This document shows, piece by piece, positions 23,992 to 29,643 of a DNA stretch of 64,000 bases. The stretch lies in the NCBI GenBank assembly GCA_029260515.1, contig JAJDDC010000070.1, forward strand, positions 62,001 through 126,000, given 5' to 3'. Numbering within the stretch: the stretch's first letter is position 1; every line of letters starts with the position of its first letter. This stretch comes from Phycisphaerales bacterium (GTDB lineage Bacteria > Planctomycetota > Phycisphaerae > Phycisphaerales > UBA1924). The notes beneath the pieces are model-generated. The model did no database searches, was not told the origin of the DNA, and worked only from the letters and a program-made list of their open reading frames with translations. The position numbers and the translations under genes are program-made.

Positions 23992-25275
23992 TTACGTCCC
24001 CGTCGTCCCGCTCCCCGTCTCGACCTCCGCGCCCTCGATCACGTACAAACCAAGCAGCCACCCGCCCACGATGTACGGGTCCACGTCCAGCTTGCCCTTG
24101 ATCGTCCCGTAGTTCACGAAGCCCGCCCCGCCCACCGACTCGTCCACCGAGCGCGACAGACGCACCTCCGCCGCGTCGTACGGCGACGGCGGCACGCCGA
24201 TGCAGCACCCGTCCCACTGGTTGAGCATCACCAGCAGCTCCTTCGTGTCCGCCGCCATCACCGGCAACAGCAAGTACCCGCGCACGCGCACCCACTTGCC
24301 GTCCAGCTCCATCGCCCACGCCGGCAGCTGCGTCAACCCCTTCTCGGGCGCGTACGAGCGCCCCGCCGACGCCATCAGATCCCAGGGCAGCTCGTACGGC
24401 GACGCCTCGGTCCCCGCGCCCTTCACCACGATCTTCCCGTTGACCAGCAGGCTCCCGTCCTCGCGTCGCTCGACCGACCCCCCGGGCCCCGTCGGCGCCT
24501 TGGACGCGTCCTGCGCGAGCCTCTCGCCGATCCCGCCGAGAGGCCCCCCGCCCCCGACGTTATCCGCAAGATCGATTCCATCGTCGGCGCCTCCGTCCGC
24601 CGAGGCGCCCGCAGGTTCAATGCTGGGCTCTCCGTCTGCGTCCGAGGAGTTGCCCTCGCCCGAGGCATCACGCGCACCGCCCGCCGCGACCGCCGCGTCG
24701 TGATCCGCCTCCGGTTCTGACGCCTCACCCTCAACCACAGACGCGACATCGCCCTCGGACTCGACCGCATCGTCGGCAGCGTCCGCGGTGATCTCACCCT
24801 TGTGCGACGCCCCCCCCTCCGACTCGCCGACGAGCCAATCGCTCTCAACGTGCTCGGTCTCGACGCCAGCCCCATCTTCGCCGCCCGCCCCGGTCGTCTG
24901 CGCCACGATCGCGTCGAGCACCACCTGCTCGCCGTCCCGGTCGTCTGTCTTCACGGGCGCCGGGTCCTCCTCGGCCACGGGCGCCTCGACGACCTCGATC
25001 CCCATCTCCGCGAGCCCCGCCTCGACCGATTCTGTCTCTTTGATCTCCGGGTCCGCCGTCGAGACGACGACCTGATCGGACACGGGTGCATCAACGCCGA
25101 CGCGTTCGGGATCGCCCGTGACTTCCGAAACCCCAACCGGCTCGGCACGAGCCGGGATCTCGACCGCGTCGCCCGTTGCCGCCGACCCGCCTTCGCCCCC
25201 CGCCTCGCCAGACATCAGGAACAGCCCGCCCGTCACGAGCACCAGCACGCCGACAATCGCCCAGAACACACGCAT
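23992..25275 (-). CDS. Membrane-anchored DUF3299 protein with long acidic linker
   Basis: The 427-residue protein starts with one membrane helix (VFWAIVGVLVLVTGGLFLMS), then ~250 residues of low-complexity Asp/Glu/Ala/Gly/Ser sequence, and ends in a globular domain of ~150 residues. The domain (WVRVRGYLLLPVM, LVMLNQWDGCCIGVPPSPYD, GTIKGKLDV) matches DUF3299, in which a Cys and PPxPY motif are conserved. DUF3299 proteins are often encoded beside MacB-like ABC transporters, as here. The ATG at 25275 has a perfect AAGGAGG site. The gene follows the permease gene by 66 nt on the same strand. It is probably a periplasmic accessory of that transporter; the substrate is unknown, with metal handling one possibility. 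Confidence 0.78.
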   Translation of the reverse strand: MRVFWAIVGVLVLVTGGLFLMSGEAGGEGGSAATGDAVEIPARAEPVGVSEVTGDPERVGVDAPVSDQVVVSTADPEIKETESVEAGLAEMGIEVVEAPVAEEDPAPVKTDDRDGEQVVLDAIVAQTTGAGGEDGAGVETEHVESDWLVGESEGGASHKGEITADAADDAVESEGDVASVVEGEASEPEADHDAAVAAGGARDASGEGNSSDADGEPSIEPAGASADGGADDGIDLADNVGGGGPLGGIGERLAQDASKAPTGPGGSVERREDGSLLVNGKIVVKGAGTEASPYELPWDLMASAGRSYAPEKGLTQLPAWAMELDGKWVRVRGYLLLPVMAADTKELLVMLNQWDGCCIGVPPSPYDAAEVRLSRSVDESVGGAGFVNYGTIKGKLDVDPYIVGGWLLGLYVIEGAEVETGSGTTGT

Positions 25276-25341
25276 CGAGACCTCCTTCAGACAGTCTCTA
25301 CCGCCCGACCCCGCCAATTGTGCCCGCAATCTCGGCCCGGA

Positions 25342-26616
25342 TCACCCGATCGGCCGCAGATTCCGCGCCACGCTCGTCCTGTACCCCGCCACCGCCGGCG
25401 CCACCCCCGCCACCGCCGCCAGGCCGACCGCCCCAAGGCCCACGGCCAGCGCCATCCGCGGCTCGATCGCCGCCTCGATCACCAGCCCCAGCCGCGCCCA
25501 CATCACCGCCGACACGATCTCCCCCCCGACCCACGCCAGCCCGACCCCGACCACCCCGCCCAGCAGGCCCAGCAGCGCGCTCTCGGTCATCACCAGCCCG
25601 AAGATCCGTGCCCGGCTCGCGCCCAAGACCCGCAGCACGGCCACCTGCCTCCGCCGCTGCTCCATCGCGTTGTACAGCGTCAGCATGATCCCGACCGCGC
25701 TCGAGATCATCACCACCGCCGCCATGCCCAAGAGCACCTGGTCGATGTTCGACACGATCCCGAACAGCCGCTGGATCTCCTGCCGCGGCTGTGCCACCGT
25801 CAGCCCTTCCTGTGCGCGCAGCCGCGACATCACCTGGGGCAACGCCGCCGGCGCCCCCCCGTCCCGCGACGCCAAACGCGCATAGATCCCCGTGATCTTC
25901 CTGTCAGCCTCCGTCAGGTCCGCCTCGCCCGTCAGCCCGGCGGCATCGCCGAGCTCACGCACTCTGCGATCGTGCGCATGAAGAATCCACGCGCTCGTCA
26001 GATCCGTAAACAGCGCCCGGTCGTGCGGCCCCCCCGTCGCCGCCAGCACGCCGACGACCTCGTAGTCGTACTCCGCGTGCGCGTGCGCCCCCGGATCACG
26101 GGCGGCGCCGTGGAACACGTTGATCGTGTCGCCGACCCCGAGCCCCGTTTCGTTCGCGGCCTCCGCGCCGAGCACGACCTGGAACGGCCCGCCGAACAGG
26201 TCCCCATCCGCAATACGCCACGCCCGCCCCGCGTCGGGCTCGAACGCCGTGAAGAACCCACGAGTCGTCGCCATCACCGGGCGCCCGCGGAACGAATCAC
26301 CGAGCTGCGTCGGGACCGCGTACGCGAACGGGTACCGCGCCCCGAGCCGCTCGTAGTCCGCCCACGGGATGTAACTCGCCGGCGCATTGGCGTAGAAGAT
26401 CCCGTTTAACACCGACACCATCGGGCTCGAGTCGTTGCTGATCAACATGTGCATGTCGCCGCTGCCCCGCTCGAACGCACGCCTCCCCGCGTCGCGCATC
26501 GAGACCAGCGTCAGCATCAACCCCACCGAGACGCCCACCATCAACACAGTGGTCACGCTCGAGAACATCCGCCCCGTCACGCTCCGCCGCACGATCGTCC
26601 AGTCGCTGACCGCCAC
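25342..26616 (-). CDS. ABC transporter permease, MacB/FtsX type
   Basis: The 424-residue protein has the topology of MacB-type permeases: an N-terminal helix (MFSSVTTVLMVGVSVGLMLTL), a periplasmic MacB_PCD-like domain of ~220 residues, and three C-terminal helices with the FtsX signature EQRRRQVAVLRVLGASRARI. Such permeases use a cytoplasmic ATPase to drive mechanical work on lipids, lipoproteins or extracted substrates and do not form a classical channel. The GTG at 26616 is chosen because upstream codons run into an interspersed repeat. The ATPase gene ends 66 nt upstream and the DUF3299 gene follows, forming one unit. Confidence 0.86.
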   Translation of the reverse strand: MAVSDWTIVRRSVTGRMFSSVTTVLMVGVSVGLMLTLVSMRDAGRRAFERGSGDMHMLISNDSSPMVSVLNGIFYANAPASYIPWADYERLGARYPFAYAVPTQLGDSFRGRPVMATTRGFFTAFEPDAGRAWRIADGDLFGGPFQVVLGAEAANETGLGVGDTINVFHGAARDPGAHAHAEYDYEVVGVLAATGGPHDRALFTDLTSAWILHAHDRRVRELGDAAGLTGEADLTEADRKITGIYARLASRDGGAPAALPQVMSRLRAQEGLTVAQPRQEIQRLFGIVSNIDQVLLGMAAVVMISSAVGIMLTLYNAMEQRRRQVAVLRVLGASRARIFGLVMTESALLGLLGGVVGVGLAWVGGEIVSAVMWARLGLVIEAAIEPRMALAVGLGAVGLAAVAGVAPAVAGYRTSVARNLRPIG

Positions 26617-26635
26617 GCGTCCTCCGCTTCTTCCC

Positions 26636-26671
26636 CCCTCTCCCCCTGGGGGAGAGGGCCGGGGTGAGGGG
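26636..26671. repeat. Interspersed inverted repeat, copy B
   Basis: CCCTCTCCCC ... GGGGGAGAGGG hairpin followed by CCGGGGTGAGGGG and CTCCGTCC, matching copy A at 3674-3708. It lies between the ABC ATPase and permease genes, where its hairpin could adjust expression of the two genes relative to each other. Confidence 0.6.
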
Positions 26672-26681
26672 TCTCCGTCCT

Positions 26682-27377
26682 CTACCGCTTCTCCCCCACA
26701 CCCACTTCTTCCAGCACCACCCGCCGCTCGAACGCCCCCGCGACCACCGGATCGTGGCTCACGCACACCAGCGCCGCCCCCTGCTCGCGGCACGCGTCCC
26801 GGATCAGCCCGATCGCGACCGCGGAGTTTTCCGGGTCAAGACTCGCCGTCGGCTCGTCCGCCAGCACAAGCGCCGGCTTGCACGCCAACGCCCGCGCCAC
26901 CGCAACACGCTGCTGCTGGCCCACGCTCAGCTCCTCGGGCGCCGCGTCCATACGATCTATGCCCAGCGTCCCCAGTAGCCCGCGTGCGCGCGCCGCATGC
27001 TCCCCCCGCGGCATCAACGAAAACATCAACGCCACCTCGACGTTCTCGAGCGCCGTAAACCCGTGCAGCAGGTTGAAACTCTGGAAGATCATCCCGATCT
27101 CACGCCCGCGGAACGCGTCCCGCCTCGCGCCCTTGAGCGAGTGGATGTCCGTCCCCGCGACAAGCACCCTCCCCGCGTCCGGGTCCAGAACGCCCGAGAG
27201 CAGGTGCAGCAGCGTGCTCTTGCCCGAGCCAGACCGCCCGACCACGACCACCTGCTCGCCCGGCGCCACGTCCAACTCGTCGATCCGCACGACATCGCCG
27301 CCCGCCCCGGAATATCCGAACCGCAGACCGCGTACTGAAAGTGCCGGCGTGTCGCCGTCGCGTTGCTCGTCGCTCAT
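26682..27377 (-). CDS. ABC transporter ATP-binding protein, MacB/LolD type
   Basis: The 231-residue ATPase has Walker A (GRSGSGKST), Q-loop (MIFQSFNLLHGFTALENVEV), signature LSVGQQQRVAVARAL, Walker B (ALVLADEPTASLD) and the H-loop SHD. The LSVGQQQ signature and overall length place it in the MacB/LolD/FtsE branch that powers FtsX-like permeases, and the next gene encodes such a permease. The ATG at 27377 starts the folded domain; upstream in-frame codons to 27434 lie in the divergent promoter region. It is the first gene of the ATPase-permease-DUF3299 unit. Confidence 0.92.
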   Translation of the reverse strand: MSDEQRDGDTPALSVRGLRFGYSGAGGDVVRIDELDVAPGEQVVVVGRSGSGKSTLLHLLSGVLDPDAGRVLVAGTDIHSLKGARRDAFRGREIGMIFQSFNLLHGFTALENVEVALMFSLMPRGEHAARARGLLGTLGIDRMDAAPEELSVGQQQRVAVARALACKPALVLADEPTASLDPENSAVAIGLIRDACREQGAALVCVSHDPVVAGAFERRVVLEEVGVGEKR

Positions 27378-27382
27378 CGTGG

Positions 27383-27388
27383 TATTCT
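27383..27388 (+). promoter_or_regulatory. Candidate -10 box TATTCT of the membrane redox unit
   Basis: TATTCT lies 39 nt upstream of the TTG proposed as the start of the first small membrane protein, in the 50-nt divergent region shared with the ABC ATPase. No -35 element is convincing. Confidence 0.25.
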
Positions 27389-27427
27389 CGCGCCCAACCA
27401 CCGCCCGGACGACCCGGAACCAACGAC

Positions 27428-27649
27428 TTGTCACCGATCGCGCTCATTCTCCTCCTGCTGGCGGCCTATCTCGCCCTCGGCGTTCTCTTCGCCCTCCCCT
27501 TCCTCGCCCGGGGCGTCTCCGCCATCGACCCCGCCGCCAGCGGCTCGTCCCCTTTCTTCCGCGTGCTCATCCTCCCGGGCGTCGCCGCGCTCTGGCCCGT
27601 CCTCGCGTTCAAGTGGGCGCGGACCAGATCGCATGGGGGCACGCCGTGA
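27428..27649 (+). CDS. Small two-helix membrane protein (73 aa), first gene of the redox unit
   Basis: From the TTG at 27428 the product has two membrane segments, SPIALILLLLAAYLALGVLF and SPFFRVLILPGVAALWPVLA, and a basic end (FKWARTRSHGG). Its stop codon overlaps the GTG of the next small gene (GTGA). The start is uncertain: no ATG or GTG lies near the first helix in frame, and a weak GGAAC sequence precedes the TTG. Position and coupling suggest a small subunit or assembly factor of the ferric-reductase/Rieske protein downstream. I know no named family for it. Confidence 0.6.
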   Translation: MSPIALILLLLAAYLALGVLFALPFLARGVSAIDPAASGSSPFFRVLILPGVAALWPVLAFKWARTRSHGGTP

Positions 27650-27792
27650 CCCCGGCCCAGCGACGGACACACCTCGCCGCCTGGCTCGTCCTCGCCCCCG
27701 CCCTGCTCGCCGCGATCATCGCCCTCGTCCTGCTCGCCCCCGACCCCGTCGCCCCGCCAACCGGCGCGCCGGCCCAGGGGGCCACGCCGTGA
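27646..27792 (+). CDS. Very small single-helix membrane protein (48 aa)
   Basis: The GTG at 27646 overlaps the stop codon of the preceding gene (GTGA), and the stop codon of this frame overlaps the GTG of the following gene in the same way. The product has one membrane helix (AAWLVLAPALLAAIIALVLL) after a short basic N-terminus (TPAQRRTH) and an Ala/Pro/Gly tail. Double stop-start coupling is strong evidence that it is translated. It probably assembles with the larger membrane protein of the unit. Confidence 0.55.
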   Translation: MTPAQRRTHLAAWLVLAPALLAAIIALVLLAPDPVAPPTGAPAQGATP

Positions 27793-28883
27793 GCGCGGGC
27801 TACGTCACCGTCCAGTGGAACGCGCACAAGCGCCGCTACGACATGCTCCTCTGGTCGGCGATCGTGGCGTACCTCGCCGCCTTCCTCGCGATCTCGATGC
27901 TCACGCACCAACCGCCCGCCGAGATCTCCGTCCCGGTCCTGCTTATGCGCGCGCTCGGGACCGCGGCTTTCATCCTCCTCACCGTCACCATCAGCATCGG
28001 CCCTCTCGCGCGTCTCGACCGCCGCGCCGCCCCGCTCCTGTACAACCGCCGCCACCTGGGCGTGTCGCTCTTCTGCCTCGGGCTCGCGCACGCCGCCCTC
28101 GCCATCCTCTTCTACGGCGCCTTCGGCGCGTCCAACCCCATCCTCGCCCTCCTCGACCGACCCGAAGCCCTCACCTCCATCAGCGCCTTCCCCTTCGAGC
28201 TGCTCGGGCTGTGCGCCCTGCTCGTCCTCTTCCTCATGGCCGCCACCAGCCACGACTTCTGGCTCAAGAACCTCTCGCCCCGCTGGTGGAAGGCGCTGCA
28301 CATGCTCGTGTACGCCGCCTACGCCGCCCTCGTCGTGCACATCACCCTCGGCCCGCTCCAGTCCGAACGCTCGCTGCTCTACCCGATCCTCCTGTCCGCC
28401 AGCGTCGCGACCGTCGGCGCCCTGCACATCGCCGCGGGCCTCAAGTCGCTCGCCCAGGACCGCGCCATGGCGCGCGACACGCCCGCCGAGAGCGCCGCCT
28501 GGATCGACGTCTGCGCCGTGACCGACATCCCGATGGACCGCGCCCGCGCAGTCCGCCCCGAGGGCGCCGACCCCATCGCCGTCTACCGCTACTCCGACGA
28601 CGTCGGCGAGTGCGTCAGCGCCATCTCCGCCGTGTGCGCACACCAGGGCGGCCCCCTGCACGAGGGCAAGATCGTCAACGGCTGCGCCACCTGCCCCTGG
28701 CACGGCTACCAGTACCTCCCCGACAAAGGCCAGTCCCCCCCACCCTTCACCGAGAAACTCCCGACCTACCGCGTCCGCGTCCAGGGCGCCCGCGTCCAGG
28801 TCAACCCCGAACCCCTTGCCCCCGGCACACCCGTCGAGCCCGCGCGCATCAGCGCGACGACAGCGAAGGCCGCCGATGCCTGA
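27789..28883 (+). CDS. Ferric-reductase-like membrane domain fused to a Rieske [2Fe-2S] domain
   Basis: The 364-residue fusion has an N-terminal part with six membrane helices resembling the ferric reductase-like/MsrQ heme-binding domain. Histidines occur in two helix pairs (FCLGLAHAALAILF and ALHMLVYAAYAALVVH), as expected for heme ligation. A Rieske domain follows at residues ~240-345, with ligands Cys283, His285 (CAHQGG) and Cys302, His305 (CPWHGY). Electrons could pass between a heme in the membrane and a 2Fe-2S cluster. No FAD/NAD(P)-binding reductase domain is present, unlike NOX or ferric reductases. The GTG start overlaps the stop of the 48-aa gene, and the next gene overlaps its end by 8 nt. 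Confidence 0.85.
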   Translation: MSAGYVTVQWNAHKRRYDMLLWSAIVAYLAAFLAISMLTHQPPAEISVPVLLMRALGTAAFILLTVTISIGPLARLDRRAAPLLYNRRHLGVSLFCLGLAHAALAILFYGAFGASNPILALLDRPEALTSISAFPFELLGLCALLVLFLMAATSHDFWLKNLSPRWWKALHMLVYAAYAALVVHITLGPLQSERSLLYPILLSASVATVGALHIAAGLKSLAQDRAMARDTPAESAAWIDVCAVTDIPMDRARAVRPEGADPIAVYRYSDDVGECVSAISAVCAHQGGPLHEGKIVNGCATCPWHGYQYLPDKGQSPPPFTEKLPTYRVRVQGARVQVNPEPLAPGTPVEPARISATTAKAADA

Positions 28884-29643
28884 TCACGACGACTTCTACG
28901 TCGGCTACCTCGCGATGCCCAGGTCCCACCGGCGCTTCCTGCAAACCGCGCTGCCCCTGACACTATTGGCCGTGCTCCTCTCCGCCGCCGCCATCGCGCT
29001 CACGCAGCGCGACCCGGGCGCGGGCACATGGCAGACGGGCGAGGCCTCGACTTGGTCCGGCATGATTCTCATCGATCCCTATCCCACATTGCACATCAAG
29101 CACGGCGAAGACCGCAGCGACTACCTCCTCGTCCGCATGGGCAAGTTCGGCGCTCGCGAGATCGCCGAGCCATTCACGAACCAGGGTGTCGTCGTCCGCG
29201 GGCGCCTGCTCGAACGCGACGGGCGCCGCATGATCGAACTCGACGACGCGCCAGGCGCCGATGCGCCCATCCGTCCATGGCCCGTGGACGCGCCGATCCC
29301 AACGCCCCCACGCCCCGTCGCTCTCGGCATCATCAACACACGCGGCGAAATCCTCGACGCAAAGTGCTACCTCGGCGCCATGAAACCGGGTGACGGCAAA
29401 GCCCACAAGGCCTGCGCGATCCTCTGCCTCGAGGCCGGAGTTCCCCCCATGCTCGTCTCCCGCGCCGACGACGGCTCGCCCCGCTACCACATCCTCCTCG
29501 AGCGCAACGGCGACCCCATCTCCGCCAAAAGCATCGCCCTGGCAGGCGAGCCCGTCCGCGTCGAAGGTATCGCCGAGGCCCGCGGCAACCTGACCTACCT
29601 CCGGGTCATCTCGCTGAGCCGTGACGGTGACGCAGACGAGTAA
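28876..29643 (+). CDS. Membrane-anchored protein of unknown function, last gene of the redox unit
   Basis: The 255-residue protein has an N-terminal membrane helix (QTALPLTLLAVLLSAAAIAL) and a C-terminal domain facing outward. The domain contains two OB/beta-barrel-like halves (YLLVRMGKFGAREIA, VVVRGRLLERDGRRMIELD) and the conserved-looking block DAKCYLGAMKPGDGKAHKAC with a nearby AILCLEAGVPPMLV. The spaced cysteines could bind metal or heme, but no CxxCH is present. It overlaps the Rieske fusion gene by 8 nt (ATG inside the previous frame), so it almost certainly acts with it. No named family was recognised. Confidence 0.75.
   Translation: MPDHDDFYVGYLAMPRSHRRFLQTALPLTLLAVLLSAAAIALTQRDPGAGTWQTGEASTWSGMILIDPYPTLHIKHGEDRSDYLLVRMGKFGAREIAEPFTNQGVVVRGRLLERDGRRMIELDDAPGADAPIRPWPVDAPIPTPPRPVALGIINTRGEILDAKCYLGAMKPGDGKAHKACAILCLEAGVPPMLVSRADDGSPRYHILLERNGDPISAKSIALAGEPVRVEGIAEARGNLTYLRVISLSRDGDADE

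Follow-up and report, generated by a model that had tools for sequence, protein, structure and literature searches.

A candidate membrane electron-transfer module built on a ferric reductase-Rieske fusion, conserved in gene order across bacterial phyla

The window (the whole 64,000-nucleotide stretch of Phycisphaerales DNA analysed here) carries four tightly packed open reading frames at 27428-29643. Their placement, lengths and overlaps, as given in the initial annotation of this DNA, were all reproduced exactly:

27428-27649, + strand: P1, TTG start, 73 aa, membrane protein with two predicted transmembrane (TM) helices
27646-27792, + strand: P2, GTG start, 48 aa, membrane protein with one predicted TM helix
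27789-28883, + strand: P3, GTG start, 364 aa, heme domain of the ferric reductase (FRD)/STEAP type plus a ferredoxin-type Rieske domain
28876-29643, + strand: P4, ATG start, 255 aa, TM anchor and two OB folds, predicted periplasmic

The P1/P2 and P2/P3 junctions are 4-nt GTGA overlaps, and P3 and P4 overlap by 8 nt. A zinc-ribbon-like/membrane gene lies 32 nt 3' of P4. Upstream of P1, the minus strand at 23992-27434 encodes a divergent MacB-like ABC permease and ATPase together with a 445-aa acidic, exported-looking protein that has no Pfam match. Neither the zinc-ribbon-like gene nor the MacB-like pair is kept beside the unit in relatives.

Four genes kept in order across phyla

Of 40 related genomes searched, 16 gave a P4 homologue, and P3 adjoins P4 in every one of these. 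Scanning 84,980 species genomes with the peptide pattern KC[YF][LF]GAMK as seed yielded 80 loci, the majority in Phycisphaerales and others in Gemmata, Isosphaera, Acidobacteriota and Saprospiraceae. Gene order was counted on the 68 contigs with at least 1.7 kb of upstream sequence. P3 lies directly 5' of P4 in 66 of these, and P1 is present as well, directly upstream of P2/P3, in 63. All four genes were recovered by HMM in 47 of the 68, a figure that under-detects P2, which is short and scores weakly; P1 and P3 usually stand 85-190 nt apart, which leaves space for a P2. The P3 and P4 reading frames share 4 or 8 nt in the majority of loci. The four-gene order occurs in Planctomycetota, Acidobacteriota and Rhizobium plasmids, and in Bacteroidota with P1 undetected, the preceding gene in the Saprospiraceae locus (L095) encoding a different small membrane protein. 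On the Rhizobium plasmids the same four genes stand in order, annotated as hypothetical, hypothetical, Rieske 2Fe-2S protein and hypothetical; in Rhizobium leguminosarum they are RLEG3_RS31985, RS35040, RS31990 and RS31995. A fifth gene, for a membrane protein of ~70 aa, overlaps the end of P4 there (L118 16865-17074; L119 13859-14071).

Purifying selection acts on all four open reading frames (pooled dN/dS 0.45 for P1, 0.41 for P2, 0.22 for P3 and 0.32 for P4; 5-7 independent pairs). Together with the order kept across phyla, this places the four-gene unit well beyond chance. P1, P2 and P4 matched no Pfam or NCBIfam family over cut-off, and a PHROGs search gave none over cut-off for P1. Five P1 residues (Y14, G18, P50, W56 and P57) are nevertheless identical in 64/64 homologues; in P2 a motif RRxHxxxW precedes the predicted TM helix, with H9 and W13 invariant in the 47 aligned homologues (47/47). 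Judged by their sequences, P1 and P2 are real, constrained genes. In other planctomycete families P2 can be longer, with an extra predicted periplasmic domain (~150-190 aa in all; L117 4808-5275, L115 5160-5738, L125 2304-2813); a resemblance of this domain to DM13, suspected by eye, found no support in Pfam.

In two unrelated genomes, G031 (L016) and G214 (L112/L135), P3 and P4 form one polypeptide in a single frame, so the C terminus of P3 and the N terminus of P4 should share one side of the membrane. P1-P4 are thus a genuine conserved module, met with in four bacterial phyla or more, its order conserved among planctomycetes and beyond. The initial annotation had argued from tight coupling that the four products form one complex. 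This proposal is well supported by the order in several phyla, the kept overlaps and the two P3-P4 fusions, from which we infer a physical assembly.

A ferric-reductase-type membrane domain joined to a Rieske domain

Two Pfam families matched P3 over cut-off, Ferric_reduct (PF01794; 2.2e-13, 50.8 bits against a cut-off of 28) and Rieske (PF00355; 6.6e-12), whereas no flavin, FAD or NAD(P)H domain did. They correspond to a six-TM heme part of the FRD/STEAP type (residues ~12-220) and a ferredoxin-type Rieske domain (~236-345). The AlphaFold model of this protein, the sole FRD protein found in the home genome (G000), has a pLDDT of 90 and shows six long helices. Its membrane part is structurally nearest to STEAP2, STEAP1 and STEAP4 (Z 15.5-16.1, STEAP2 16.1), with NOX5 also among the matches (range 15.4-16.1), and its Rieske part matches dioxygenase ferredoxins, with CarAc at Z 15.9 and also the best match in sequence (31% identity). 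Two stretches of P3 bear on its cofactors:

28053..28055, + strand: H89, an extra His after R87 R88 at the predicted cytoplasmic end of TM3, found in Rhizobium too
28635..28706, + strand: cluster-binding Rieske motifs C283-A-H285-QGG...G-C299-x-x-C302-P-W-H305-G-Y

Histidines 89, 101, 155, 171, 184 and 213 are invariant in 62/62 sequences of our P3 alignment (A3); the Rhizobium copy at L119 has Asn at position 213. Among them are H89, H101, H171 and H184, so the putative heme-ligand histidines that the initial annotation asked for in an alignment are all kept. The canonical FRD heme-ligand His of TM3 and TM5 are H101, H171 and H184. R87, also invariant in A3, lies 14 residues before H101, where Arg replaces the first canonical FRD His. 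This Arg at -14 and the H171-H184 spacing of 13 match the YedZ/STEAP branch signature described by Zhang et al. (2013; PMC3591440). With H89 as an additional His, a flavin or another heme may occupy the inner site of P3.

The Rieske ligands C283, H285, C302 and H305 are likewise invariant (62/62). An FRD-Rieske fusion with intact CxH and CxxH ligands and no flavin domain, as first annotated, is therefore confirmed by both the Pfam matches and the residues. C299 is kept in 62/62 sequences of A3 but is absent from both Rhizobium copies and from G207. Averaged over the alignment, charge is clearly positive on the inside loops of P3 and neutral or negative on the outside ones. This pattern predicts a cytoplasmic position for the N terminus, for the loops TM2-3 and TM4-5 and for the C-terminal Rieske tail. 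Dual Sec-Tat targeting (PMC5449189), by which the Rieske domain would be exported, was considered and rejected, as TM6 is not immediately preceded by a twin Arg and the charge places the C terminus inside.

These features bear directly on the initial guess of quinol:acceptor oxidoreduction, that is, a miniature bc-like enzyme in which the Rieske takes electrons from quinol. A cytochrome b-like membrane domain and a Rieske domain are indeed joined in a single protein, and a search of the genome for a bc-type cytochrome b to fill that role gave none. Rieske potential differs by type, being low in the ferredoxin type and raised in the bc type by disulfide cysteines and a Ser. The P3 Rieske has neither the two bc-type disulfide cysteines (288 is G and 304 is W) nor the bc-type Ser; it is of the low-potential type and predicted to be cytoplasmic. 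Moreover, the P3 membrane domain is FRD and not PF00033, which was found neither in P3 nor anywhere in G000, so that membership of the bc1/b6f family was rejected, and the genome encodes a protein of the NrfD type known from alternative complex III. The guess is not supported by this comparison, and we regard a bc-like quinol oxidation by the Rieske of the module as very improbable.

MsrPQ (YedYZ) offers another parallel, with a six-TM FRD heme protein encoded beside a periplasmic-side partner and the same three canonical His. In contrast to MsrQ, however, P3 adds a predicted cytoplasmic Rieske domain, and P4 is unrelated to MsrP. The NCBIfam MsrQ model does match P3 at 2.4e-12, but the score of 46.8 is far under the cut-off of 130 (NF003831). 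The MsrP-type molybdopterin domain PF00174 is absent from G000 (~94% complete), the control search being positive in 9/14 genomes. P3 was therefore not accepted as a member of MsrQ, and there is scarcely any chance that the module is a diverged MsrPQ serving methionine sulfoxide reductase.

STEAP proteins are like P3 in their membrane domain, the best structural match, and in the Arg that takes the place of the first canonical His. P3 differs from STEAP2-4 in having no NADPH-binding oxidoreductase domain, a Rieske cluster being the likely electron input instead, and the module differs from STEAP in its partner P4 and its two tiny subunits. Unlike NOX and the long-form ferric reductases, P3 gave no match to an FAD- and NAD-binding dehydrogenase domain. 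The CarAc-type dioxygenase Rieske ferredoxins and NirD come nearest to the P3 Rieske in fold and sequence, but in P3 this domain is joined to a heme membrane domain.

Zhang et al. (2013; PMC3591440) name an FRD+Rieske architecture, "M4", in which Rieske is taken as an electron-transfer domain; according to their Figure 3 legend, M4 also includes an FMN domain. Both M4 and P3 have FRD fused to Rieske, and P3 may or may not be identical with M4. In that paper M4 is a domain architecture only, with no operon, P1, P2, P4, topology or mechanism. The FRD-Rieske fusion was thus listed in 2013, while the operon appears undescribed: in the open-licence literature we found no description of it, PMC3591440 alone listing the architecture. 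Within that literature, the initial statement that no complex with this set of proteins had been described holds.

An anchored OB-fold protein with invariant Cys and His residues

P4 is, as first annotated, a membrane-anchored protein with a KCYLGAMKPG block (residues 163-172) whose gene overlaps the preceding one by 8 nt. An N-terminal TM anchor (16-43) is followed by two OB folds (~50-145 and 148-250), predicted to be periplasmic; a charge of +2 lies just N-terminal to this single TM. The AlphaFold model, built on a 77-sequence alignment, has a pLDDT of 92. Its best OB-fold matches (Z 8.2 for 146-251 and 6.7 for 54-140) are middling and indicate fold only. Foldseek likewise returned only weak OB-fold matches, and a sequence search of the PDB gave no match. 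The second OB fold contains an invariant motif:

29356..29427, + strand: P4 motif D161-x-K163-C164-x2-GAMKPG-x4-H177-x2-C180-A-x2-C184

D161, K163, C164, GAMKPG, H177, C180 and C184 are invariant in 77/77 sequences (alignment A2). The DNA search pattern biases this count for K163, C164 and GAMK, whereas H177, C180 and C184 lie outside the pattern; the Rhizobium P4 copies, found by a separate search, keep all motif residues. The Cys-His-Cys-Cys set looks built for a metal or a redox-active thiol, but it could instead be structural, as a zinc site or a disulfide.

Other planctomycetes have exported-looking proteins in which the second OB fold stands alone, and the neighbourhoods of these proteins give a lead toward metal binding, though not proof. 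Such lone OB-Cys proteins adjoin CusA-type RND genes in L103 and L108 (RND genes named by eye), and one with His-rich ends lies in the copper-resistance island of the Phycisphaera mikurensis plasmid pPSMK1 (L128 6893-8587), where genes for a DUF2231 membrane protein and then a Tat-type Rieske protein follow. In L104 and L106 lone OB-Cys-type proteins occur as tandem pairs, with one copy lacking the Cys/His ligands. P4 might on this basis be a metallochaperone, or deliver copper or heme, with P3 reducing its metal in the service of resistance or oxidase maturation. YHS-domain neighbours at some loci point the same way, as do the STEAP relatives that reduce Fe and Cu according to PMC3591440. However, only 2 of ~10 lone OB-Cys proteins adjoin metal-efflux genes, most having no metal-resistance neighbour, and no metal-transport gene is kept beside the four-gene module. 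Metal or cofactor handling therefore seems to us improbable as the role of the module.

Electron path and candidate partners

Our own reading, to which we give an even chance, is that P1-P4 form one membrane electron-transfer complex leading from a cytosolic donor through Rieske and heme to P4. The donor would reduce the [2Fe-2S] cluster of the Rieske domain at the P3 C terminus, which would pass electrons to an inner-leaflet cofactor near H89, H155 and H171. This cofactor would be a flavin or another heme b, and P2 is predicted to place its invariant His on that face of the membrane. From there electrons would reach an outer-leaflet heme held by H101 and H184, and finally P4 on the periplasmic side, or an acceptor held by P4. 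The direction of flow and the final acceptor are our guess. Such a path would make the module work like a reductase of the STEAP/MsrQ type, Rieske replacing the flavin/NADPH input. In MsrQ-like flavinylated systems, too, a PF01794 membrane protein hands electrons to an extracytosolic protein (PMC8238504). Unlike those systems, the module has no ApbE or FMN-binding protein, and Rieske goes unmentioned in PMC8238504.

Candidate donors come from gene neighbourhoods, called with a heuristic gene caller in this GC-rich DNA. In planctomycetes of other families the module adjoins two fusion genes, one for Rieske-GltS (glutamate synthase-like) and one for Rieske-TPP; in G207 and G192 it lies directly 3' of them. 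Both fusions are encoded on the same 16-kb contig as the module in G296, and a profile match places the same Rieske frames upstream of it in G084. A divergent Rieske-GltS gene adjoins the module in G141 and G172, and G055 has a lone C-terminal piece of P4 beside Rieske-GltS. The home genome encodes Rieske-GltS, a DUF1622 membrane protein and Rieske-TPP in a row outside the window (G000:C96; L121 5263-9306), its Rieske-TPP being nearest to pyruvate oxidase models. Haloarchaeal plasmids (L127, L126) carry a Rieske-GltS ~64% identical to the planctomycete protein, with a TPP-binding protein gene two genes upstream of it in L126.

Among 294 Planctomycetota genomes, 22 have the module (counted by P4 match, two of them partial), 21 have Rieske-GltS and 11 have both (Fisher p = 6e-9, uncorrected for phylogeny). 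Rieske-GltS was found in only 4/40 close relatives searched, and most module-bearing Phycisphaerales genomes lack it, so the module does not require it as a donor; ten sampled genomes have Rieske-GltS and no module, and each can thus work alone. A Pyr_redox flavoprotein and a membrane polyferredoxin, further candidate donors, are encoded directly upstream of the module in Saprospiraceae (L095), and an SDR gene precedes it in Rhizobium. Given these differing upstream genes, the cytosolic donor seems exchangeable. No functional neighbour is common to most Phycisphaerales loci, and neighbours differ even among close relatives; ECF sigma/anti-sigma, PP2C phosphatase, YHS, DinB, NRDE and DoxX genes (some named by eye) recur in a minority.

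The same association could be read in reverse, with a quinol or periplasmic donor feeding heme, then the cytoplasmic Rieske, then soluble enzymes such as Rieske-GltS. The GltS part belongs to an FMN/Fe-S family that usually consumes electrons, its gene is often adjacent to the module, and MsrQ is described as quinone-binding. Yet the majority of carriers among close relatives have no Rieske-GltS to be fed, the module bears no sign of a quinone site, and P4 as a fixed end station suits outward flow at least equally. We thus consider inward flow unlikely. To return to the outward path, a bolder version of it would have Rieske-GltS and the pyruvate-oxidase-like Rieske-TPP exchange electrons Rieske-to-Rieske with P3, which would feed P4 as a new periplasmic OB-fold Cys-His-Cys-Cys protein, in an undescribed complex that crosses phyla; this we put forward only tentatively, as doubtful.

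An intact membrane redox module common to distant phyla has been carried in annotations only as "hypothetical" or "Rieske protein". If it works as proposed, it would add a Rieske-fed trans-membrane route beside the NADPH/flavin-fed routes of STEAP and NOX and that of MsrQ, would establish a pair of tiny, conserved subunits together with a new family of periplasmic redox or metal proteins, and would tie P1-P4 to Rieske-tagged metabolic enzymes. As the module is present in Rhizobium, ordinary genetics can put it to the test.
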